Below are positions 4,807-14,209 of a DNA stretch of 14,209 nucleotides, piece after piece (within the stretch, counting starts at the first letter, position 1; every line of letters starts with the position of its first letter). The notes beneath the pieces were generated by a model. The model saw only the letters and a program-made list of their open reading frames with translations, had not been told where the DNA came from and searched no databases. The position numbers and the translations under genes are program-made. The DNA is from Thermomicrobiaceae bacterium (GTDB lineage Bacteria > Chloroflexota > Chloroflexia > Thermomicrobiales > Thermomicrobiaceae), in NCBI GenBank assembly GCA_007123655.1, contig SKKR01000237.1, positions 1 through 14,209 on the forward strand. The letters run 5' to 3'.

Positions 4807-5982
4807 TCAGGCGGATGCCCGTTCCTGCGATTCGGTCCGGTCACTTCCGAACATGTCCAGCATCAGCAGGCCTTCGATCTCGATGAACTCGTACATCCGC
4901 ATCATCGCCTGGAACTCCGGATCGGTGTGGAGGTACAGCCCTTCCATGAGTCCCTGGGACACGACCGGATCGAACATCTTCGAGAACTTGTTGTTCTGGA
5001 TCGCAATGAACAGTTTGTACAGGTCGACGAGCTCGGCGGGGCTGATCGGCGTCCGTTGATCGCTCATCAACACCTTGCCCTGGGACATACGGACCTTCAA
5101 GCCGTTCTCGAGGGCGAATCGGTTGAGCTGGTTCTCGAACTCAACAGCGGTCCGCCCCTGACTGAACAGAATCAGTTTGAAGTACATCGATTCGACCGCC
5201 ATGTTGAACAACTCGGTGACCTTCTGCTTGTCCGGCGGGATGGACTCGACGTATCCGGCCTTCACCAGGTCGTAGAGTGCCCGGGCGGTGTCGAACTGGG
5301 TCTTTCCCGCACGGGAGGCGATCGTGGCCACGTCTCGGTTGCCGTCCACCAGTCGGTAGAGCTCTCGCATGTCCTTTGGTGGTTGCGCGGCCGGCGGCCG
5401 GCTCGTTCGCCGGTAGATCATGTAGACCGACGGCACGATGGGACTGATCTCGATCCACTCGTCGACGCGCCGCGTACCCTCAATGATCAGGTGCATGCTG
5501 TCCACGGAGACGTTGACGCCACCCTCACGCACGATCTCGCCAGACTTGAACGTGAACTTGCAGTTTCGCCAGAGGAACAGGGTGAAGATCGAGATTTCCA
5601 GCAACTGATCCCGACAGCTCGTTACGTCCGCGTCCGTGATGCTTCCGTTGCGCTTGAGTTCGCCGATCGCGGCCTCATCGGTCCGGTACCCGCGCTTTGA
5701 TAGAGTGTCCAGTTGCTGGCGGGTTACTTTTCCGTGCCGGAGCAGCAGATCACGCATCGTTGGCAAGCGGCTTCCGGCGGCGACGTAGCTGATTCGACCG
5801 TCCTGGAACGTAATCGTTCTCGTGTTCCAGCCCTGAATCAGCGTCAACACGCCGGATTTGTTGCTGAAACTCAGCATCTGGAAGAGATCGGACAGCGTAA
5901 ACGCGCCGAGTTTCCCCTGAAGGTCGTACTCACCGGAGGCTATTCCGTTAGTCATCATGTCGTACTGCATCGTCGGTCTCAT
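4807..5982 (-). CDS. DUF4388 (PatA-N-like) protein with winged-helix and helical C-terminus
   Basis: A 391-residue cytoplasmic protein. Residues about 20-168 match the DUF4388 pattern: LQGKLGAFTLSDLFQML, then a beta-rich SGVLTLIQG...ITFQDGRISYVAAG block, then two helical segments of the type LLLRHGKVTRQQLD and GELKRNGSITDADV, ending in a strand pair FTLFLWRNCKFTFKSGE. Family knowledge places DUF4388 in signalling proteins (for example cyanobacterial PatA and many chloroflexal and deltaproteobacterial proteins); its molecular activity is not settled. A winged-helix-like module follows at about 204-247 (LYRLVDGNRDVATIA...YDLVKAGYV). The remaining approximately 130 residues are helical and unrecognised. 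It starts 6 bp after the SGNH hydrolase stop and is the last gene of that unit. ATGs at codons 1 and 5 both compete as start; GTGGA lies just before the first. Possible role: scaffold or regulator. Confidence 0.85.
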   Translation of the reverse strand: MRPTMQYDMMTNGIASGEYDLQGKLGAFTLSDLFQMLSFSNKSGVLTLIQGWNTRTITFQDGRISYVAAGSRLPTMRDLLLRHGKVTRQQLDTLSKRGYRTDEAAIGELKRNGSITDADVTSCRDQLLEISIFTLFLWRNCKFTFKSGEIVREGGVNVSVDSMHLIIEGTRRVDEWIEISPIVPSVYMIYRRTSRPPAAQPPKDMRELYRLVDGNRDVATIASRAGKTQFDTARALYDLVKAGYVESIPPDKQKVTELFNMAVESMYFKLILFSQGRTAVEFENQLNRFALENGLKVRMSQGKVLMSDQRTPISPAELVDLYKLFIAIQNNKFSKMFDPVVSQGLMEGLYLHTDPEFQAMMRMYEFIEIEGLLMLDMFGSDRTESQERASA

Positions 5983-5988
5983 ATTCCA

Positions 5989-7029
5989 CTAGCGCGGTGG
6001 CGGAAGAATGATCGACACACGCTCTTCTGACGAATTGCCGGCAAGATCGGCCGCGATAACGGAGAGTTCCACCTGGTTCTGCTCGTAGGCGCGTCCGTTC
6101 CAGACGCCTACCCATGCGTCCCGATCCGGAACGTAGGTCAGATCCTTTTGTGGCTCTCCATCCACGGCCAGAACCACCCGATCGACGCCCACGTCGTCCT
6201 GGACGACGGCATGAATCGTCGGTGTCCGGTTTCGAACGTTGAGCTCGTCTGGCATCGTGATTTCGACTTCAGGCGGATCCTGGTCATAGCCGAGCGACTG
6301 CCAGATCTCCCGGGCGATAAGCTGATGGCCGGCGTTGTTCGGGTGAATGTCGGCCGGGAACCAGGTGAGCGAGCCGATGCGGCCCCGAAAGATCGACTCC
6401 AGGTCAACTACGGAGAACCCCGCGTCTTCGGCGGTTTCTCGAATGACGTGATTGAACTGGGCCAGCCACCAGGAGTCGCTTCCTTCAATCTCGGGATCGC
6501 CCTCAGACACATCGTAGTACGTGGTGACGATCACATCGGGGTCCTGGCCCTCGAGTGCATCGGCGAGCGTGCCGACGATTTCGTCAAATCCGGTCGCGAA
6601 ACGCTCCAGTTCGTCCTGTCGCTCGGCCGCGTTTGCTTCCCAGAGGGCGAGGATGTCATTCCCGCCGATCGTCAGCGTCACGGTGCGCAGTGCGCCATCC
6701 TGGACATCGCCGATTGCGTCCAGTGCGTCGTCGAGCTGTCCATCCTGGACGAATGAATCAACCGTCTCACCCTGCTCGGCGAGATTGATCAGGTCAACGG
6801 CTCCCGGCGCGTCCGCGGCCAGGCGTTGCTGTTGCATCAGATCCTGGAGTAGCCACGAATATCCCCGTTGGGTTGGCAGACTCGCCAGCAGCCCCGCCGC
6901 GATCGAGTCCCCGAGCGCCAGGTATACGTCTTCTGACTGCGCCTGTGTGCCGGTTCCGCTCGCATGCGAGAGGATGAGCAGCAGCGCGATTCCTGTCACA
7001 CCGATCGTCCGGATGATCCTCGTCAGCAT
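5989..7029 (-). CDS. Secreted SGNH/GDSL hydrolase with C-terminal Ig-like domain
   Basis: A 346-residue exported esterase or lipase-like enzyme. Residues 1-30 form a signal peptide (positively charged start, hydrophobic VTGIALLLILS core, cleavage likely in the small-residue stretch around 23-30). The SGNH blocks are visible: ALGDSIAAG with nucleophile Ser42, Gly87 in AEQGET as the oxyanion glycine, IGGND with Asn124, and DIHPNNAGH with Asp227 and His229. From about residue 250 a separate beta-rich module begins (DPPEVEIT...DDVGVDRVVLAVDG...ADLAGNSSEE), typical of bacterial Ig-like/fibronectin-type cell-surface domains. It ends in a proline-rich tail without an anchor motif. The natural substrate is unknown; acyl or acetyl esters on lipids or polysaccharides are plausible. 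The ATG overlaps the end of the HIT-Nudix gene (ATGCTGA), a sign of coupled translation, with AGGA upstream as binding site. Confidence 0.92.
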   Translation of the reverse strand: MLTRIIRTIGVTGIALLLILSHASGTGTQAQSEDVYLALGDSIAAGLLASLPTQRGYSWLLQDLMQQQRLAADAPGAVDLINLAEQGETVDSFVQDGQLDDALDAIGDVQDGALRTVTLTIGGNDILALWEANAAERQDELERFATGFDEIVGTLADALEGQDPDVIVTTYYDVSEGDPEIEGSDSWWLAQFNHVIRETAEDAGFSVVDLESIFRGRIGSLTWFPADIHPNNAGHQLIAREIWQSLGYDQDPPEVEITMPDELNVRNRTPTIHAVVQDDVGVDRVVLAVDGEPQKDLTYVPDRDAWVGVWNGRAYEQNQVELSVIAADLAGNSSEERVSIILPPPR

Positions 7030-7940
7030 GGTGGACCGTCCTGCAGGAGACGATGGATCGCGGGCAGCGCGGCTTCAAGCATTTCCTTTGCCGGAGGGTG
7101 CGTCAATGCGGTGACCGCCTCCTCCGGCGAATACAGTTCAGTATCGTGACCCAGGTGTCGATCGAACGACGTTCCCGGTACGGCGGAAAGAATCAGGTGC
7201 GCCACACGCCGGCGCTCGTCGCCGTAGGTAAATTCCAGGGTGCCGCCCCACCCGGCCGGTTCCGCAACCAGTCCCATTTCCTCATCGACTTCGCGGATCG
7301 CGGTCTGGTAGGCGGCTTCGTCGGATTCGATGTGCCCCTTCGGTAGCACCACGCTTCCGTTCGCGGTCTTCCGAAGCGCGACGGCGCCCCGGGACGGAAT
7401 CACCGGGATTGCGCCGGCCTGACCGATCACCGGGTCGACCTCGAGGTCGGTTCGGCTCGCAAGTTCCAGTTCCGCGCGGATTTTGGCGTAGGTGATGGGA
7501 ATCAGCTCCGGGAGCACCATCGTGTTGGCCAGGACCGGCATGAAGTTCGCATCTCCCACCCAGCGTGGGACGACGTGAATGTGCAGGTGCTCCGAGACCC
7601 CGGCGCCTGATACCTCACCCAGGTTCAGCCCGATGTTGAATCCATCGCAATTGAGAACCCGTTTCAACGCCGTCGTTACCCAGGGAACCAGGTCCCAGAG
7701 ATCACGGTTGACGTGGGTAGGAAGATCGGCGAGATCGGGGGCGTGCTGATAGGGAACGACCATGACGTGTCCGCTGTTATAGGGATAGAGATTCATGATC
7801 ACGTAGGCGTGCCCGGCGCGATGCAGGATCAGATGACGCACGTCGTCATCGTGCTCCGGCCTGGAGCAGAAGATGCACGAAGCGTCACGCGCTTCTCCAC
7901 TCACATAGCGCATTCGCCACGGGGTCCAGAGTCGTTCCAT
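7023..7940 (-). CDS. HIT-Nudix fusion protein, predicted dinucleoside polyphosphate hydrolase/phosphorylase
   Basis: A single 305-residue protein joins two nucleotide-cleaving domains. Residues 1-150 are a HIT domain of the Ap4A-phosphorylase-like group: MERLWTPWRM start, CIFC (22-25, probable zinc site), NLYPYNSGHVMVVP, and the catalytic HLHIH (His118, 120, 122). Residues about 175-300 are a Nudix hydrolase. The segment 202-224 matches the Nudix box GX5EX7REUXEEXGU at every fixed position (Gly202, Glu208, Arg216-Glu217, Glu220-Glu221, Gly223), preceded by VVLPKGHIE, a wording common in MutT/Ap4A-hydrolase relatives. Both domains look catalytically complete. Family knowledge suggests degradation of Ap4A-like alarmones or other nucleoside diphosphate derivatives; the exact substrate is inference. 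It is first in a three-gene unit. ATG 7938-7940 is preceded by AAGGTG at good spacing. Confidence 0.93.
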   Translation of the reverse strand: MERLWTPWRMRYVSGEARDASCIFCSRPEHDDDVRHLILHRAGHAYVIMNLYPYNSGHVMVVPYQHAPDLADLPTHVNRDLWDLVPWVTTALKRVLNCDGFNIGLNLGEVSGAGVSEHLHIHVVPRWVGDANFMPVLANTMVLPELIPITYAKIRAELELASRTDLEVDPVIGQAGAIPVIPSRGAVALRKTANGSVVLPKGHIESDEAAYQTAIREVDEEMGLVAEPAGWGGTLEFTYGDERRRVAHLILSAVPGTSFDRHLGHDTELYSPEEAVTALTHPPAKEMLEAALPAIHRLLQDGPPC

Positions 7941-8180: not shown

Positions 8181-9668
8181 ATGTCGACACTGCTCTCGAG
8201 CGCCCGGCCGTTCTCTGAGCGCTCAGCCGCTGGACTTGAACGCTGGCTAATGCCTGTCGGTCGGGCGACAATCGACGCACTGCTCGTGTTTGCCGCCTTC
8301 GGGATCGCGTACTGGATGCGCTATCGACTCGAGTTCGGCGGCGAAGTCCTCCCCGGGTTCAGTCAACCTTTCCGCTTCTTCCTCGAAACCGTCATTCTCC
8401 TCATGATCGTCTCCATCGTGGTTCTGCAGGTACGCGGCATCTACCGGTTGCCACGCTGGACGAGCTTCCTCGACGAAGCGTTAATCATCGCCAGTAGCGC
8501 CACAACTGCAATGGCGATCATCGTCATGTACAGCTTCCTGCAACGGTTCTTCCCGTCCCGCTTGATCTTCATCTACGCCTGGATCCTGATGATCGTTCTG
8601 CTGATCGGGAAACGGCTCATCGTCCGGATGGTCAGGCAAGGGTTCTGGGCGCGAGGTATCGGGGTGGAACGTGTGCTCATTGTCGGAGCCGGGCGAGCGG
8701 GCCAGCGAATCATGCAGCACATCTATGGCAACCCCCAGCTTGGCTACCGCGTCGTCGGTTTCCTCGGGGATCAGCCGGCGGATTCCAACTGGGGCATCGC
8801 CACGGAACGGAGGGTAGAACGCCCACCCTTCCTGGGCGATCCCGGCGCGATCGAGGAAGCAATCCGCCAGCATGACGTTGATGAAGTCATCATAGCGTTG
8901 CCGCCGGCAGAGCATCACAGCATCTTTCAGATGATTCAGCAGTGCCGTCAGATGGACGTTTCGTTCACCTTCCTGCCGGATCTCTTCGAGATGGCGCTTG
9001 ACCGGGTATCGATCCATGAGGTCGCCGGGTTACCGCTCATCGAACTGCGGGAGTCCCGGATTCGCGGGCTGAACTACGTGGTAAAGCGGGCGATGGACGT
9101 GCTTGTATCCATGGCTGTCCTGATCATCACCGCTCCGCTGCTCGGGCTGATCTCACTTGCCATCAAGCTCGATTCTCGCGGGCCCATATTCCTGCGTCAG
9201 GTTCGCGTCGGTCGGGATAGCGAGGAATTCGTCTGCTATAAGTTCCGGTCCATGGTGCAGGACGCAGAGAGGCGCAAGCAGGAATTGATGGAACAGACCG
9301 GTAGCAACGGACCGTTGTTCAAAATGAAGAACGACCCCCGCGTGACCAGGGTCGGCAAGCTGCTCCGGAAAACATCGCTGGACGAGCTTCCGCAGTTCTT
9401 CAACGTCCTGCTGGGCGAGATGAGCGTCGTCGGGCCTCGCCCTCAGGTGCCGTCCGAAGTTGATCTCTATGAGGACTGGCATCACCAGCGCCTGCAGGTT
9501 ACCCCGGGACTGACCGGGCTCTGGCAGGTGAGCGGACGAAGTGATCTGACGTTTGACGAGATGGTGAAGCTGGATCTGTATTACGCGGAGAACTGGTCTC
9601 CCTGGCTGGACATCAAGCTGATGCTTCGCACGATTCCCGCGGTTCTCTTCGGGCGGGGAGCGTACTGA
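8181..9668 (+). CDS. Polyprenyl-phosphate sugar-1-phosphate transferase (WcaJ-like)
   Basis: Membrane enzyme that starts polysaccharide repeat-unit synthesis by transferring a hexose-1-phosphate from a nucleotide sugar to undecaprenyl phosphate. The 495 residues show the full long-form PHPT architecture. Four N-terminal transmembrane helices lie between about 28 and 146. A CoA-binding/Rossmann-like domain follows, with VLIVGAGRAGQ (165-175) and VIIALPP. The catalytic domain runs from about 300, with a membrane hairpin helix after KRAMDVLVS, YKFRSM (353-358), TSLDELPQFFNVL with the Asp401-Glu402 dyad, SVVGPRP (415-421) and GLTGLWQVSGR (443-453). The sugar (glucose or galactose in relatives) cannot be read from sequence. 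It is the first gene of the plus-strand polysaccharide operon, behind an extended -10 promoter and a leader stem-loop. GGCGGA precedes the ATG. Confidence 0.95.
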   Translation: MSTLLSSARPFSERSAAGLERWLMPVGRATIDALLVFAAFGIAYWMRYRLEFGGEVLPGFSQPFRFFLETVILLMIVSIVVLQVRGIYRLPRWTSFLDEALIIASSATTAMAIIVMYSFLQRFFPSRLIFIYAWILMIVLLIGKRLIVRMVRQGFWARGIGVERVLIVGAGRAGQRIMQHIYGNPQLGYRVVGFLGDQPADSNWGIATERRVERPPFLGDPGAIEEAIRQHDVDEVIIALPPAEHHSIFQMIQQCRQMDVSFTFLPDLFEMALDRVSIHEVAGLPLIELRESRIRGLNYVVKRAMDVLVSMAVLIITAPLLGLISLAIKLDSRGPIFLRQVRVGRDSEEFVCYKFRSMVQDAERRKQELMEQTGSNGPLFKMKNDPRVTRVGKLLRKTSLDELPQFFNVLLGEMSVVGPRPQVPSEVDLYEDWHHQRLQVTPGLTGLWQVSGRSDLTFDEMVKLDLYYAENWSPWLDIKLMLRTIPAVLFGRGAY

Positions 9669-9740: not shown

Positions 9741-10886
9741 ATGACGGAACCGCGAGTCGCGCTCTCTCACGACTATCTCAATCAATACGGCGGTGCGGAG
9801 CGTGTGGTCGAGGTCTTTCACCGGGTCTATCCGGACGCGCCGGTGTATACGTCGATCTTCGATCCCGATTCGATGCCGCCGGATTACGCCACGTGGGATG
9901 TCCGCACCTCGTTTCTTCAGCATGTTCCGGGCGTTCATCGCAACCACCAGCCATATCTCCCGCTCTATCCGCTGGCATTCAAGTTCCTGCGTGTAGACGA
10001 GGGGTACGACGTGCTTCTCTCCTCGAGCAGTGCCTGGGGAAAGGGCATTCGGGTGCCTCCGGATATGCTGCACATCTGCTACTGCCACAGCCCGATGCGG
10101 TTCGCATGGGACTTCGACCACTACGCGGAGCGCGAACGCATGGACTGGGTGAGCCGGCGGGCCGTACAGCCTATACTCAGGCGCCTGCGGAACTGGGACC
10201 GGGCAACGGCGAAGCGCGTCCACCATTTCATCGCAAACTCCCGAACGGTTCAGAAACGCATCGCGGAGTACTGGGGTCGGACGTCGACCGTGATCCACCC
10301 TCCAGTCGACACCGAAAGCTTCAGAACAGCACGGCAGGACCAGGTTGAGGAGTATTTCGTCCTGGTTTCGCGGCTCGTGCCGTACAAGCGGTTTGATCTG
10401 GCGATTGAAGCGGCCAACGAACTGGCGTTTCCGCTGAAGATTATCGGCGACGGGCGCGCCCGGGCTGAACTCGAGGAGATGGCAGGCCCGACGGTCGAGT
10501 TCCTTGGCCGTGTCAGCGACGATGAGCGCAACCGGCTGTTTGCCCGCTGCCGGGCCGCGATCTTTCCGGCTGAGGACGACTTCGGCATCGGCCAGGTGGA
10601 GGTTCAGGCCGCCGGTCGACCGGTCATCGCGTTCGACCGCGGCGGTGCTCAGGAGACGGTTATCGATGGCGAGACCGGCGTGTTATTCTCTCCGCAAACA
10701 ACAGACGGACTGATCGACGCGATTCGTCGATTCGAGGCTCTCACGTTTTCGACCGAGAGTATTGCATGGCACGCCCAGCAGTTCAGCCGGGATCGGTTCG
10801 AGCGTGAGATCAGGGAGTTCGTCTCCGAGCGGTTCGCAGCGTTCTCCGGCTTGCGATCCGGCACGGTTGACCAGGCTGGTGATTGA
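9741..10886 (+). CDS. GT4-family glycosyltransferase
   Basis: A 381-residue retaining GT-B glycosyltransferase, probably cytoplasmic and acting on the lipid-linked sugar made by the preceding enzyme. The N-terminal domain has the acceptor-side loop YGGAERVV (16-23) and HICYCHSPMRFAWD (111-124), a stretch typical of the WbaZ/mannosyltransferase-like GT4 subgroup. The donor domain has VSRLVPYKRFDLAIEA (209-224), with Arg211 and Lys216 as expected phosphate contacts, and FPAEDDFGIGQVEVQAAG (275-292). In relatives the EX7E motif begins with Glu; here the aligned residue is Asp279 (with Glu278 next to it) and the second Glu287 is kept. Donor sugar is inferred to be GDP-mannose-like but not certain. 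GAGGCAGG precedes the ATG, 72 bp after the upstream gene. The next gene starts 6 bp after its stop. Confidence 0.92.
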   Translation: MTEPRVALSHDYLNQYGGAERVVEVFHRVYPDAPVYTSIFDPDSMPPDYATWDVRTSFLQHVPGVHRNHQPYLPLYPLAFKFLRVDEGYDVLLSSSSAWGKGIRVPPDMLHICYCHSPMRFAWDFDHYAERERMDWVSRRAVQPILRRLRNWDRATAKRVHHFIANSRTVQKRIAEYWGRTSTVIHPPVDTESFRTARQDQVEEYFVLVSRLVPYKRFDLAIEAANELAFPLKIIGDGRARAELEEMAGPTVEFLGRVSDDERNRLFARCRAAIFPAEDDFGIGQVEVQAAGRPVIAFDRGGAQETVIDGETGVLFSPQTTDGLIDAIRRFEALTFSTESIAWHAQQFSRDRFEREIREFVSERFAAFSGLRSGTVDQAGD

Positions 10887-10892
10887 GGTGCG

Positions 10893-11588
10893 GTGGAGCT
10901 GAAGTACTATCTGTCCATTCTCAGACGACGCTGGATGCCGTTCCTCATGGTGCCCATGATGGTCGGTTTGTTTGTCATGATGCAGATAATCGGGGCGGAT
11001 ACCACGTACTCCGCCTCCGCCCAACTCAGCGTCACCCGTGCCCCGCAGCAGCTCGAAATTGACGACTTTCGTTACAACGAGTACTACCTGTTCCTGTCGA
11101 GCGAGTTCCTGATCGACGACCTCGTCGAGATCGTCCACGGCAACGTGTTCGCACAGGACGTACACCAGCGGCTTCTCGACGAGCAGGGAGTGGATATCTC
11201 CGCGGGCGAGATCCAGGGGTCCATTACGGCCGACCGGCAGCATCGGATTCTCACGATCGACGTGAGCAGCCATGATCCGGATCGCGCCGTGCTGATCGCC
11301 CGGGTAGCTACCGATCAACTGCACGCCGATGCGACCCGTTACTTTGGATTCGGGGAGGATGAGCGTTCCGCGGTCGTCGAACCGGTACAGATCGCCGAAC
11401 ATGCAGGCCCTTCGATGGGGCGGGATCAGGTGTTCTGGGCGCTTCAACTCGCGGTGGCGCTGTTTGGCGGGGTACTGCTGGCGTTCTTCATCGAATACCT
11501 GGATGACCGGATGCACTCCTCCGAGATGGTCGAACACGCGCTGGGTCTCGATGTGATCGCGGAAGTCCCGCGCGGGAAGGTGGACTAG
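10893..11588 (+). CDS. Wzz-like polysaccharide co-polymerase, first of two
   Basis: A 231-residue inner-membrane protein with the Wzz/PCP plan: short cytoplasmic start ELKYYLSILRRRW, transmembrane helix about 15-33, a periplasmic domain of about 145 residues with alpha-helical stretches, a second helix about 180-200, and a C-terminal cytoplasmic tail reading FIEYLDDRMHSSEMVEHALGL, the usual PCP ending that precedes the kinase in Wzc-like proteins. Such proteins set polymer chain length and help export. The proline-rich motif normally found just before the second helix is absent here (AEHAGPSMGRDQ). GTG is the start: the in-frame stop of the preceding gene lies three codons upstream (10884-10886) and GAGG (10885-10888) provides a short-spaced binding site. 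Confidence 0.85.
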   Translation: MELKYYLSILRRRWMPFLMVPMMVGLFVMMQIIGADTTYSASAQLSVTRAPQQLEIDDFRYNEYYLFLSSEFLIDDLVEIVHGNVFAQDVHQRLLDEQGVDISAGEIQGSITADRQHRILTIDVSSHDPDRAVLIARVATDQLHADATRYFGFGEDERSAVVEPVQIAEHAGPSMGRDQVFWALQLAVALFGGVLLAFFIEYLDDRMHSSEMVEHALGLDVIAEVPRGKVD

Positions 11589-11591
11589 GTG
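11586..11591 (+). other. Back-to-back stop and start, TAG-GTG
   Basis: The TAG stop of the first Wzz-like gene is directly followed by the GTG start of the second, in the same reading frame. The AAGGTGG that serves the second gene (11577-11583) lies inside the end of the first. This geometry strongly implies coupled translation by the same ribosomes; stop readthrough would yield a fused double-PCP protein, though the base after the stop (G) does not favour readthrough. Confidence 0.7.
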
Positions 11592-12275
11592 CGCCCGGAG
11601 GAGTACCTGCTGATCATCGCCAGACGTTGGTGGCTGGTGCTGATTACGATCTTCGTAGCCGCTGGCAGCGCGTTTCTGTACAGCTCGACGCAGGATGAAA
11701 CCTACGAGACATCCGCGCGGTTGATGGCCATCGCGGAACCTCCTGACTACTACACCGACCTGTACGCCAAGAACCGGCTGGCGTCCTACCGGGATTTGAT
11801 TGACAATCACGAGTTCGTTGCCACGGCGTTGGAAAGCGCCGGTTCCGGGATCGATCCGGGTCGGGCGGTCGGAATGCTCTCGGTTGGACACAATCCCGAT
11901 GCAAACGTCGTCCAGGTGATCGCCCGGGACACCGATCCGGCGCGCGCCGCTGAGGTCGTCAACGCGGTCGCCAACGAGTTTGTGGAACAGAGCGCCGAGG
12001 AGAACCGGCAGTTGCGGGAGATCTACGCCGGGGAAGGTGAGGACGTTTACCGGGGCGGGATCGTACGAATCGCCCAGCTGGACCATCCGGCCCCGCCGGA
12101 GACGCCGGTTGGCCCGCGCACCCGTCTGAACACGGCTGCCGCAGCACTGCTCGGTCTCGTGTTCGGGGTGCTGCTGACCTTCGGCATCGCATACTTTGAA
12201 GACTCGTTGCGGAAGCCCGAAGACATCGAACGGTATCTGGGTCTCCCGACGATCGGGGAGATCCCCGGGCGTTGA
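11589..12275 (+). CDS. Wzz-like polysaccharide co-polymerase, second of two
   Basis: A 228-residue partner of the preceding gene with the same topology: EEYLLIIARRWWLVLITIF leading into helix 1 (about 14-32), a periplasmic domain, and helix 2 (about 181-201). Unlike the first copy it keeps the proline-rich segment before helix 2 (PAPPETPVGPRTRL, 167-180). The tail AYFEDSLRKPEDIERYLGLPTIGEIPG is the textbook PCP-2 ending that leads into the BY-kinase domain in fused proteins. Here translation stops (TGA 12273-12275) and a separate kinase-like gene follows after 18 bp. The periplasmic part contains a DPARAAEVVNAVANEFVEQS helix typical of Wzz proteins. The two copies are clearly related in plan but diverged in sequence, so they probably form a mixed oligomer or have different partners (inference). 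Confidence 0.9.
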   Translation: MRPEEYLLIIARRWWLVLITIFVAAGSAFLYSSTQDETYETSARLMAIAEPPDYYTDLYAKNRLASYRDLIDNHEFVATALESAGSGIDPGRAVGMLSVGHNPDANVVQVIARDTDPARAAEVVNAVANEFVEQSAEENRQLREIYAGEGEDVYRGGIVRIAQLDHPAPPETPVGPRTRLNTAAAALLGLVFGVLLTFGIAYFEDSLRKPEDIERYLGLPTIGEIPGR

Positions 12276-12280
12276 GAGGT

Positions 12281-12286
12281 GGAGGG
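12281..12286 (+). promoter_or_regulatory. Ribosome binding site deciding the pseudo-kinase start
   Basis: GGAGGG lies 7 bp before GTG 12294-12296, ideal spacing. The upstream in-frame GTG at 12279 overlaps this purine run and has no room for its own binding site, so 12294 is the better start. Confidence 0.7.
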
Positions 12287-12293
12287 TAGTGGT

Positions 12294-12968
12294 GTGCCAG
12301 CAGACCAGTCGGCGGCCGGGAGTACCGGTCCATCGATCATGACGCCCGATCTCGTCGTTGTCCGGGAGCCGGACTCTGACGGGGCGCAGGCGTACCGATC
12401 TGTCCGGGAGACGATCCGTCACGCCCGGAGCGACCCACCGGTCCGCTCTGTGTTACTGGCCGACGCCGGCTCTCGCGATCAGGCGGGTGAAGTGATCGCC
12501 AACGTCGGCGCCAGCTTCGCGCTGAACGGAAGCCCTACGGTACTCGTCGACGCTGATGGTTCCAATCCGTCCTTGCACCGACTGCTCAACACCCCGCTGA
12601 GTCCTGGACTGATCGAACGCCTGTCATCCGGTTCAGCGAATCCGTTGTCGACGGCTGTTGCATCGCTCTCGGTCATTCCGGTCGGCACTCGGGCGGATTC
12701 CACCGTGCTCCCGCTCGCCGATCTGCTCTCCGACGAGACGTGCCAGCAGCTGGTCACGGAGCTGACGTCCTCCGCTCGCTACGTGCTGTTCAATGCCACC
12801 GTCGCGCCCGTTTCGAGCGAGGCGCTAACCATTGCCGCGAATGTTGACGCGGTCCTGCTGCTGGTGCGGTCATCCGTGACCAGGCGAACGGACGCCCAGC
12901 GCGCGAGAGAGTCGCTGGAACGCGTGGGCGCCAACATTCTCGGCGCGGTGCTTACCGATAGCCGCTGA
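12294..12968 (+). CDS. BY-kinase-like (CpsD/CapB-type) protein with degenerate ATP site
   Basis: A 224-residue cytoplasmic protein with the layout of the tyrosine autokinases that partner Wzz proteins. AYRSVRETIRHARSDPPVRSVLL (33-55) matches the family's EAYRxLRTNI entry and first strand. Aligned without gaps, the Walker A loop (PxPGEGKST in active enzymes) reads ADAGSRDQAGE here (residues 56-66): the glycines, the Lys (now Ala64) and the Ser/Thr are lost. Walker A' survives as TVLVDADGSNP (82-92). The Walker B DTPP reads NATV (167-170), with Asp replaced by Asn. The later strand DAVLLLVRSSVT and the closing GANILGAVLTD are conserved. There is no C-terminal tyrosine cluster. It should therefore bind the PCP tails but not phosphorylate; this is inference. 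Last gene of the operon; its end overlaps the convergent DUF4388 gene by 17 bp. Confidence 0.85.
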   Translation: MPADQSAAGSTGPSIMTPDLVVVREPDSDGAQAYRSVRETIRHARSDPPVRSVLLADAGSRDQAGEVIANVGASFALNGSPTVLVDADGSNPSLHRLLNTPLSPGLIERLSSGSANPLSTAVASLSVIPVGTRADSTVLPLADLLSDETCQQLVTELTSSARYVLFNATVAPVSSEALTIAANVDAVLLLVRSSVTRRTDAQRARESLERVGANILGAVLTDSR

Positions 12969-14209
12969 CGGCGCGACCGTTGTTTCCTGGGGACTGGAAT
13001 GTGTCTCGGGACGGTTCATCCGGGAAGTCTGTGTCAGTGGTGAGGTACCGGCGTTCGATCAGGCTCGAAGCGTGTTTCTCGAGCAATGACATGGGCAGTC
13101 CCGTGTTGTTCGAGATCTCAGTCAGAGACGTCGCCCCGTTGAGCACTGCCATCATGATCTGAACTTCGGTCCTGGGGAGTTCGCGCAAGCCGTTGAGTTC
13201 GACACCGGTGCCAGCGGGGCGCAGTATCCAGCCAGGGTCCGAACCCTGAATTTGCGGCTTCTCCCCGTCCGGTTCATCGCTTTCACCGTCGAGGCGAGAT
13301 TCGATATCGATCAGGTCGTCAGCCAGGAGTTGATCGATAGCCTCATTGAGCTGTTCCGGGGTGAGGTCCAGCTGGCGGGCGATCGAGATCGTATCTGTCT
13401 CACCGTTCAGCAGTGTAAGTACGATCCGATGCGCATTCGTGCCGAGCGAGGCAAGGATCCACGGATCGACCAGTTCGTCCTTGAGGCGAATCCGTTCGTT
13501 GCGGGCGTTTTCCCGGCCGGTGAGGTGCTCATCTTCGTGAGACTCGACCGCAATCCGGATCAACACGTTTTCCAGCAGGCGCTCTACGCCTTTTTTCATG
13601 TTGAGCGCGGAGGTTCCGATCCGCCAGGCGAGCCGATGCAGTTCGCCGTAGGTTTCTACGAGTTGCTCCAGCAGTTCCCTCTCGTGCGGGCGCAGCCGCT
13701 CCAGTATCCGGGGATCGATCAGATCCTCCGGTAGCGAGTGAACTTCAGTCGGCTTCTGATCAGCCAGCCATCGGTCGGCAAGATAGGTGGCGTTGAGCAC
13801 CAGGGGTTCGAAGTTGATGGGAGCCGGGTGCGTATCTTCCTCCGAGTCCGGCTCCAGGTGGTACTCGAAGGTCCCGTGTTCCTGAATCAGAAGGTTGACC
13901 AGTGACGCCTCGAGCTGCGCGGCGACCGCGCGGCTAATCTCGTTCGGCGTCACGTACCCCACGTCGATCAGCACATCCCCGATGCGGTTCGGGTCGTGCG
14001 CCACTTCCTGCAGAATGAGTGCCTGCTCGATCTGCTCCTCGGTAACATACCCCTGATCGACAAGCACCTGACCGATGCGGAGCGATCCGTCACTGGAGCT
14101 GACCGACTGGACCGTGCCGCGGTCGAAGGTAATCGTAACGTCGGCGACTTCCGTGCGAATAGTCAGCCGCCCGGATTTTCGATGCCGGGCGAGAACGTGG
14201 AGGGTATCA
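12952..14209 (-). CDS. DUF4388 protein with three winged-helix-like repeats, 5'-truncated by window edge
   Basis: The frame is open to the right edge, so GTG 14065-14067 is not the true start. The 47 residues encoded by 14208-14068 read like a DUF4388 beta-sheet: RKSGRLTI, VTITFDRGTVQSVSSSDGSL, then RIGQVLVDQGYVTEEQIEQA. A second copy of that helical unit follows (RIGDVLIDVGYVTPNEISRA), then LLIQEHGTFEYHLEP, parallel to the DUF4388 protein at 4807-5982. Numbering from that GTG, three winged-helix-like modules come next: about 119-172 (DPRILERLRPHERELL...), 202-255 (DPWILASLGTNAHRIVL...) and 294-344 (LRELPRTEVQIMMAVLNG...), separated by acidic linkers. The first two begin with the same DPxIL phrase and look like internal duplications. 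It ends with a polar disordered tail. Likely a signalling or scaffold protein; partner unknown. Its stop codon lies inside the convergent pseudo-kinase gene. Confidence 0.85.
   Translation of the reverse strand, partial: DTLHVLARHRKSGRLTIRTEVADVTITFDRGTVQSVSSSDGSLRIGQVLVDQGYVTEEQIEQALILQEVAHDPNRIGDVLIDVGYVTPNEISRAVAAQLEASLVNLLIQEHGTFEYHLEPDSEEDTHPAPINFEPLVLNATYLADRWLADQKPTEVHSLPEDLIDPRILERLRPHERELLEQLVETYGELHRLAWRIGTSALNMKKGVERLLENVLIRIAVESHEDEHLTGRENARNERIRLKDELVDPWILASLGTNAHRIVLTLLNGETDTISIARQLDLTPEQLNEAIDQLLADDLIDIESRLDGESDEPDGEKPQIQGSDPGWILRPAGTGVELNGLRELPRTEVQIMMAVLNGATSLTEISNNTGLPMSLLEKHASSLIERRYLTTDTDFPDEPSRDTFQSPGNNGRAVSGYR

Follow-up and report, generated by a model that had tools for sequence, protein, structure and literature searches.

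A BY-kinase-like protein without catalytic motifs, probably a structural partner of PCP proteins, in an order of Chloroflexota

The window analysed here, a stretch of 14,209 nucleotides on contig C63 of a Thermomicrobiaceae draft genome (G000; 594 contigs), contains a run of polysaccharide genes in which a BY-kinase-like protein without catalytic motifs (a BY pseudokinase) lies directly downstream of two short PCPs. The features are listed below, with pseudokinase residue numbers counted from GTG 12279.

8181–9668, plus strand: WcaJ-type undecaprenyl-phosphate sugar phosphotransferase, which opens the gene run (TIGR03023, above cut-off)
9741–10886, plus strand: group 1/family-4 type glycosyltransferase in the same gene run
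10893–11588, plus strand: PCP1, a second short CapA/Wzz-like protein
11589–12275, plus strand: PCP2, a CapA/Wzz-like protein of the short form
12281–12286, plus strand: Shine-Dalgarno-like GGAGGG, read from the sequence, 7 nt before GTG 12294
12294–12968, plus strand: BY pseudokinase, with its stop codon at 12966–12968
12387–12407, plus strand: QAYRSVR, the counterpart of the EX2RX2R octamer-ring helix, reading QX2RX2R here
12474–12491, plus strand: former P-loop, R66-D67-Q68-A69-G70-E71 at the positions of G-E-G-K-S-T
12549–12566, plus strand: Walker A' remnant D-A-D-G-S-N, with D91-x-D93 kept and Leu-Arg changed to Gly-Ser
12792–12803, plus strand: former Walker B, N-A-T-V in place of D-T-P-P (Asp to Asn)
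12879–12908, plus strand: conserved C-terminal stretch TRRTDAQRAR, whose entropy ranks at the 3rd percentile among the genus-level sequences
12957–12968, plus strand: C-terminal end D-S-R-stop, with S-R alone after the last strand motif and no tyrosine tail

PCP1 and PCP2 are about 230 residues each and have no BYK domain of their own. A second in-frame GTG at 12279 is an alternative to the start at GTG 12294, and the GGAGGG upstream of the latter agrees with the good ribosome binding site reported in the initial annotation. Promoter and terminator scans gave nothing above shuffled sequences. The gene for a DUF4388 protein (12952–14208, minus strand) runs towards the pseudokinase gene, with a 17-base overlap at the 3' end of the latter. 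All 11 loci of family f1 have such a DUF4388 gene facing the pseudokinase; none was seen at nine other loci, some of them short. The window also encodes a second DUF4388 protein (4807–5982, minus strand) and a single protein with HIT and NUDIX domains (7023–7940, minus strand), the latter adjoining polysaccharide genes in many relatives.

Homology of ORF 12294–12968 to BY-kinases is far above chance. The NCBIfam models TIGR03018 (E 6.8e-19) and TIGR01007 (E 1.1e-17) both match, each below its curated cut-off, and the best PDB match is S. aureus CapAB (3bfv, E 7.3e-14); Pfam lists no family for the protein at E 0.1. These profile searches support the earlier description of a BY-kinase homologue with the P-loop replaced by RDQAGE and the Walker B DTPP by NATV. 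GK[S/T] is absent, with A69-G70 found where K-S is expected, and the reported lack of a tyrosine tail also stands, since the chain continues for only two residues (S-R, no Tyr) past the last strand motif. Two details required correction. The alignment to CapB had been called gap-free, which is true across the P-loop and Walker A' but not between Walker A' and Walker B, where there are short indels. Walker A' had been called intact; only D91-x-D93 remains, with Gly-Ser in place of the Leu-Arg that normally comes next.

A protein search for relatives of the pseudokinase returned 55 proteins, and a genome search produced matches in 41 of 61 genomes, BY-kinases with intact motifs among them. The family that carries the pseudokinase is that of Thermomicrobium and Sphaerobacter (Chloroflexota), and its proteins include P0074 (Thermomicrobium sp. 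4228-Ro) and P0058 (Thermomicrobiaceae bacterium CFH 74404). Orthologues from three of four same-genus relatives share 59–61% identity with the window protein and are missing the same motifs. Motifs were counted in one alignment of distinct sequences comprising 63 stand-alone and 28 fused members of the family, 32 stand-alone kinases from the class level, and 26 fused BY-kinases of the order; bracketed counts below follow that order. The family sets derive from 64 stand-alone and 34 fused rows, of which one and six, respectively, had the same core under two ids. Membership was assigned by tree clade, plus P0056–P0077 by fused similarity, and not by motif, with P0049 in neither set. The class-level set represents 33 loci (32 distinct sequences) out of many more stand-alone matches.

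Catalytic motifs are lost throughout the family to differing degrees. K[S/T] is kept in none of the family sequences (0/63, 0/28, 32/32, 23/26), and the same is true of complete GK[S/T] (0/63, 0/28, 26/32, 23/26), for which the lower class-level count results from six sequences with E, D or N for Gly. At least two Tyr after the last strand are nearly confined to the kinases (1/63, 0/28, 30/32, 21/26). The Walker B Asp is present in a minority of the family (22/63, 6/28, 32/32, 25/26), and all 22 stand-alone members that have it are outside the window's genus. Retention of Walker A' differs by position: the first Asp (61/63, 23/28, 31/32, 26/26), Asp or Asn at the second position (61/63 and 27/28 in the family), and the Arg (31/63, 28/28, 32/32, 26/26). 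Both ring-helix Arg are kept in most sequences of every set (63/63, 26/28, 30/32, 26/26), and the ring-helix Glu in 30 of the 63 stand-alone members. Counted by alignment rows, the 32 stand-alone rows of the window's genus have the Walker B Asp in 0, the Walker A' Arg in 1 and the ring Glu in 0, against 23, 31 and 31 of the other 32 stand-alone rows. The P-loop and tail are gone almost everywhere in the family, loss of the Walker A' Arg is almost confined to the window's genus, and g5, part of g2, f4, f5 and a few of the fused forms still have the Walker B Asp. A check for close relatives in which GKS/T and DTPP are intact found none with GK[S/T] among the orthologues examined from the genus, the family and the order. 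The six class-level kinases in which E, N or D replaces the Gly preceding the P-loop Lys (L101, L104, L106, L117, L119 and L121) retain the Lys and Ser and are maybe half-way states.

A maximum-likelihood tree of 91 rows placed all 39 family rows on one side of a branch with support of 100/96. P-loop columns were excluded, and no root was inferred. The tree used 91 of 141 rows, leaving out near-copies, P0052–P0055, L033, L070 and some fused kinases. One of the 39 family rows, L051, has a Lys near the site and no P-loop glycines; the alignment of the 63 and 28 sequences places no Lys there. An earlier tree of 96 rows (96 of 111, near-copies dropped) recovered a 64-row family clade at 100/95. 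Both K[S/T] and the Walker B Asp are intact in the stand-alone relatives that belong to other families of the class (32/32), which suggests that the ATP site was lost near the base of the order (the Thermomicrobium/Sphaerobacter lineage of Chloroflexota). At ten loci of these outside stand-alone kinases, a PCP is directly upstream in 10/10, both PCPs are present in 9/10, a glycosyltransferase in 9/10 and WcaJ in 1/10. Given this similar gene run they are likely orthologues, although they do not come out in the tree as the closest sisters of the pseudokinase family.

The pseudokinase is under purifying selection. Values of dN/dS (NG86) were 0.06 for the closest pair (L004/L005) and 0.11, 0.23, 0.17, 0.09, 0.15 and 0.21 for six further pairs with dS < 0.75, and YN00 estimates ranged up to 0.25. 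Comparisons of the window protein with its genus are saturated (dS 1.7–2.2). In four fused pairs the PCP part has a dN/dS of 0.05–0.13, which means slightly weaker constraint on the pseudokinase part. A protein missing two motifs in a draft assembly that is 70.56% complete could reflect a decaying pseudogene or a sequencing fault. However, the same loss is found in 91 distinct family sequences, in frame, with conserved neighbours and low dN/dS in measurable pairs. Because the 63 stand-alone and 28 fused sequences without K[S/T] belong to one supported clade under purifying selection, the loss is not recent decay. Orthologues from the same genus, family and order rule out a recent fault, and we consider decay of any kind extremely improbable. 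The initial annotation had likewise held that the gene is not a decaying pseudogene, and the loss shared by orthologues of the genus, family and order, with dN/dS of 0.06–0.23, agrees with this.

In the window's genus, constraint has moved from the active-site motifs to the ring and C-terminal helices. The genus-level set (n = 32) has the ring helix at the 1st percentile of entropy, the C-terminal helix at the 3rd and the three former active-site motifs at the 58th–59th, while in the fused BY-kinases of the order the P-loop, Walker A' and Walker B are at percentiles 0–6 and the two helices at 18 and 68. In family members from outside the window's genus, few stretches are better conserved than Walker A' (10th percentile in stand-alone members, 3rd in fused), and the former P-loop is among the most variable (90th percentile in other stand-alone members, 80th in fused); these family percentiles rest on 64 stand-alone and 34 fused rows, duplicates included. 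The P-loop of the class-level kinases is of average conservation only (55th percentile). Within the window's genus (n = 32), the loop that replaces it has G64, G70, A74 and N75 in 32/32 sequences and D62 in 30/32. These well-kept positions, and the wide retention of Asp at the first (61/63, 23/28) and Asp or Asn at the second Walker A' position, would suit a former ATP site rebuilt to hold another ligand or effector, making the protein a sensor and not a plain scaffold. Against this, the former P-loop is highly variable in the rest of the family and its letters differ from genus to genus, so a sensor seems improbable. Pure scaffolding in turn does not explain the conserved Walker A' outside the window's genus or the Walker B Asp in 22 of 63 stand-alone members.

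Linkage to the PCPs is conserved. A PCP gene is immediately upstream of the pseudokinase in 20 of 20 loci (PCP2 in 18, PCP1 alone in two f3 loci). PCP2 and the pseudokinase form one open frame in four of these loci, all from the three sister genera g3, g4 and g6, and translations identified the fused PCP2-pseudokinase in all 12 g3/g4/g6 genomes found. In these fused forms the PCP part is CapA-like and short, at about 230 residues. Pseudokinase loci and kinase loci cannot be told apart by the length of the PCP tail. Wzy_C proteins (PF04932) were identified in 10 of 10 genomes searched, with no listed place at the pseudokinase locus. Loss of K[S/T] in all family members examined, selection, PCP linkage and fusion to PCP2 together favour the role proposed in the initial annotation, that of a dedicated non-catalytic partner of PCPs. 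Its further suggestion, that the protein may hold the Wzz-like oligomer in a single state and so control chain length, is more speculative.

A partner without an ATP site could still depend on an active BY-kinase encoded elsewhere in the genome, which it would modulate through mixed rings or competition for PCP tails. The window's genome has one BY-kinase with intact motifs (G000:C154), and this genome and three of four same-genus relatives encode both the pseudokinase and a fused kinase with intact motifs (4/5 genomes of the genus; the fifth, G003, 84% complete, shows the kinase only). Modulation of this type has been discussed for S. aureus CapB1/CapB2 in PMC3795738. Other genomes argue against it. 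A profile of intact BY-kinases (A4) was run over 21 genomes, and in 12 of 12 g3/g4/g6 genomes the pseudokinase was the only full-length match (E at most 3.3e-37), with the next matches at E 1.2e-18 or weaker. Nine of the 12 are at least 90% complete, and one lists two equal-scoring pseudokinase copies. Ten of the weaker matches, from four of the 12 genomes (G006, G007, G009 and G012), were compared with NCBIfam and identified as four MinD, two ParA-like, two Mrp/ApbC and two MinD-like proteins behind response-regulator domains, with no BY-kinase among them; an eleventh (L141) was read by eye only. Poor profile sensitivity was considered as the cause of the missing kinases and rejected, given the gap in E values (3.3e-37 vs 1.2e-18) and the identities of these ten matches from four of the 12 genomes. 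Pairs of fused genes from g3/g4/g6 genomes nevertheless have dN/dS of 0.09–0.23, and the gene order is the same (four loci). Modulation is therefore already unlikely for the fused lineages, if the genomes are complete, and as the main role of the family it is made unlikely by genomes in which no active kinase to modulate was found. The pseudokinase as the only full-length match in 12/12 genomes favours a scaffold acting alone.

CpsB/CapC-type phosphatases were identified in 5 of 10 genomes, four of which are fused-form genomes with no catalytic BY-kinase found (G006, G007, G009 and G012; four of four fused-form genomes searched). A BY-kinase is encoded in one of the five stretches around these genes, the one from G005. 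Matches to low-molecular-weight phosphatases were obtained in 9 of 10 genomes. Phosphotyrosine removal may therefore still matter, which counts against a purely structural role.

The explanation we favour, and regard as likely, is that the window protein is a BY pseudokinase, a CapB/CpsD-type domain whose ATP site and tyrosine tail were lost near the base of the order and which was retained to serve PCP1 and PCP2 as a structural partner. Loss of the site and tail in a protein still kept by selection suggests that it is probably a scaffold rather than an enzyme. The pseudokinase would bind PCP2 at its cytoplasmic tail, in the manner of CapB with CapA and EcpK with EpsV, and its RX2R helix would form a ring, or support one, beneath the PCP oligomer. 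Since the ATP site and the tyrosine cluster are both missing, such a ring could not be dissolved by trans-phosphorylation, and its assembly would be set by binding and unbinding alone. In that case no phosphorylation cycle would be needed to support polymerisation of an envelope polysaccharide by a Wzy enzyme encoded elsewhere. The ring, the binding to the PCP, to which the natural fusion to PCP2 points only indirectly, and the lack of ATP binding are all predicted here from sequence.

Structural work on CapB bears on this prediction in two ways. PMC3795738 describes the octamer interface of CapB as two halves: the EX2RX2R helix, on which trans-autophosphorylation and polysaccharide synthesis depend, and the Tyr cluster. 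Judged by its motifs, the family appears to keep most of the first half and to have lost the second, and on that description of the interface a stable ring is not assured. Retention of the ring-motif Glu in 0/32 sequences of the window's genus also counts against a ring role. According to PMC3795738, crystalline CapA1B2(K55M) held ADP-Mg, so losing the P-loop Lys alone need not abolish nucleotide binding. Beyond the lost Lys, the window protein is also changed at the P-loop glycines and at Walker B.

BY pseudokinases paired with PCPs are known from Myxococcus (EcpK) and Caulobacter (HfsB), and the interaction of EcpK with the PCP EpsV provides an experimental precedent (main text of PMC12004946). 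The window protein fits the description of this kind, a BYK-like domain without Walker A, Walker B or Tyr tail. The EcpK/HfsB kind is defined by function, and the likeness drawn here is one of features. Like the window protein, EcpK of M. xanthus is a stand-alone BYK-like protein without Walker A, Walker B or a Tyr tail, and its PCP lacks a BYK domain; unlike it, EcpK has no Walker A' either, carries a C-terminal helix rich in Lys/Arg and occurs in a cell with two bona fide BYKs, as the same text describes. The window protein keeps the Walker A' Asp, ends right after the last strand and is accompanied by two short PCPs, and in some of the pseudokinase lineages studied here no other BY-kinase was found. 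HfsB of C. crescentus is likewise a stand-alone BYK-like protein with a PCP partner (HfsA) and no catalytic residues or Tyr tail, but it belongs to another phylum and has a single PCP partner, a comparison made from the description in PMC12004946 only. S. aureus CapB/CapA shares the stand-alone domain beside a short PCP and the ring-helix Arg; CapB2 differs as an active kinase with a P-loop, Walker B and a Tyr cluster. PCPs joined to a BY pseudokinase in one chain, among them SMc01795 of S. meliloti, are named in the main text of PMC12004946 and have the architecture of the g3/g4/g6 fused forms.

Chloroflexota are absent from this literature as far as it was covered: the word Chloroflex does not occur in the main text of PMC12004946, and a search for Chloroflexi and BY-kinase found nothing on a pseudokinase lineage by title and abstract. 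With EcpK and HfsB published, the Chloroflexota pseudokinase is therefore a new lineage of a known kind, and an order-wide one. What is new here is the order-wide loss placed on a tree, a natural series of fusions, and genomes in which no catalytic BY-kinase was found. The one-chain examples such as SMc01795 are presumably larger than the g3/g4/g6 fused forms, the likeness being one of architecture.

Under the current model, a PCP-2 system depends on a BY-kinase that goes through cycles of phosphorylation, a view that EcpK and HfsB called into question in two Gram-negative species. Some of the genomes analysed here appear to operate a conserved PCP locus in which the only BY-kinase-type protein found in the whole genome is a pseudokinase. 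Relatives outside the order keep the catalytic motifs at loci of this type, which allows the change to be placed on the tree and tested. A broader reconstruction, which we offer tentatively and hold to be somewhat less probable than its negation, is that the order, near its base, turned an ancestral stand-alone capsule kinase into a permanent structural subunit and kept it across at least five families, and that the Thermomicrobium/Thermorudis branch fused it with the PCP and gave up all its catalytic BY-kinases. If true, this would be natural proof that PCP-driven polymerisation needs the ring and not the phosphorylation cycle. Several members of the family are misannotated in public records as a tyrosine kinase or ATPase.

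Changes at the P-loop were also observed outside the family. Two fused PCP-BY-kinases, L073 (G005:C1) and L071 (G013:C81), have Lys replaced by Arg in an otherwise intact P-loop and a single tail Tyr, and are possibly a second, separate pseudokinase. In another fused BY-kinase, L059 (G025:C126), the P-loop Lys is Thr and there is no tail Tyr, which is another separate loss. Four further proteins, P0052–P0055, form a distinct clade of BYK-like proteins that lack a P-loop, end in FPIP-x3-Y-x2-L and have the Walker B Asp in three of four.
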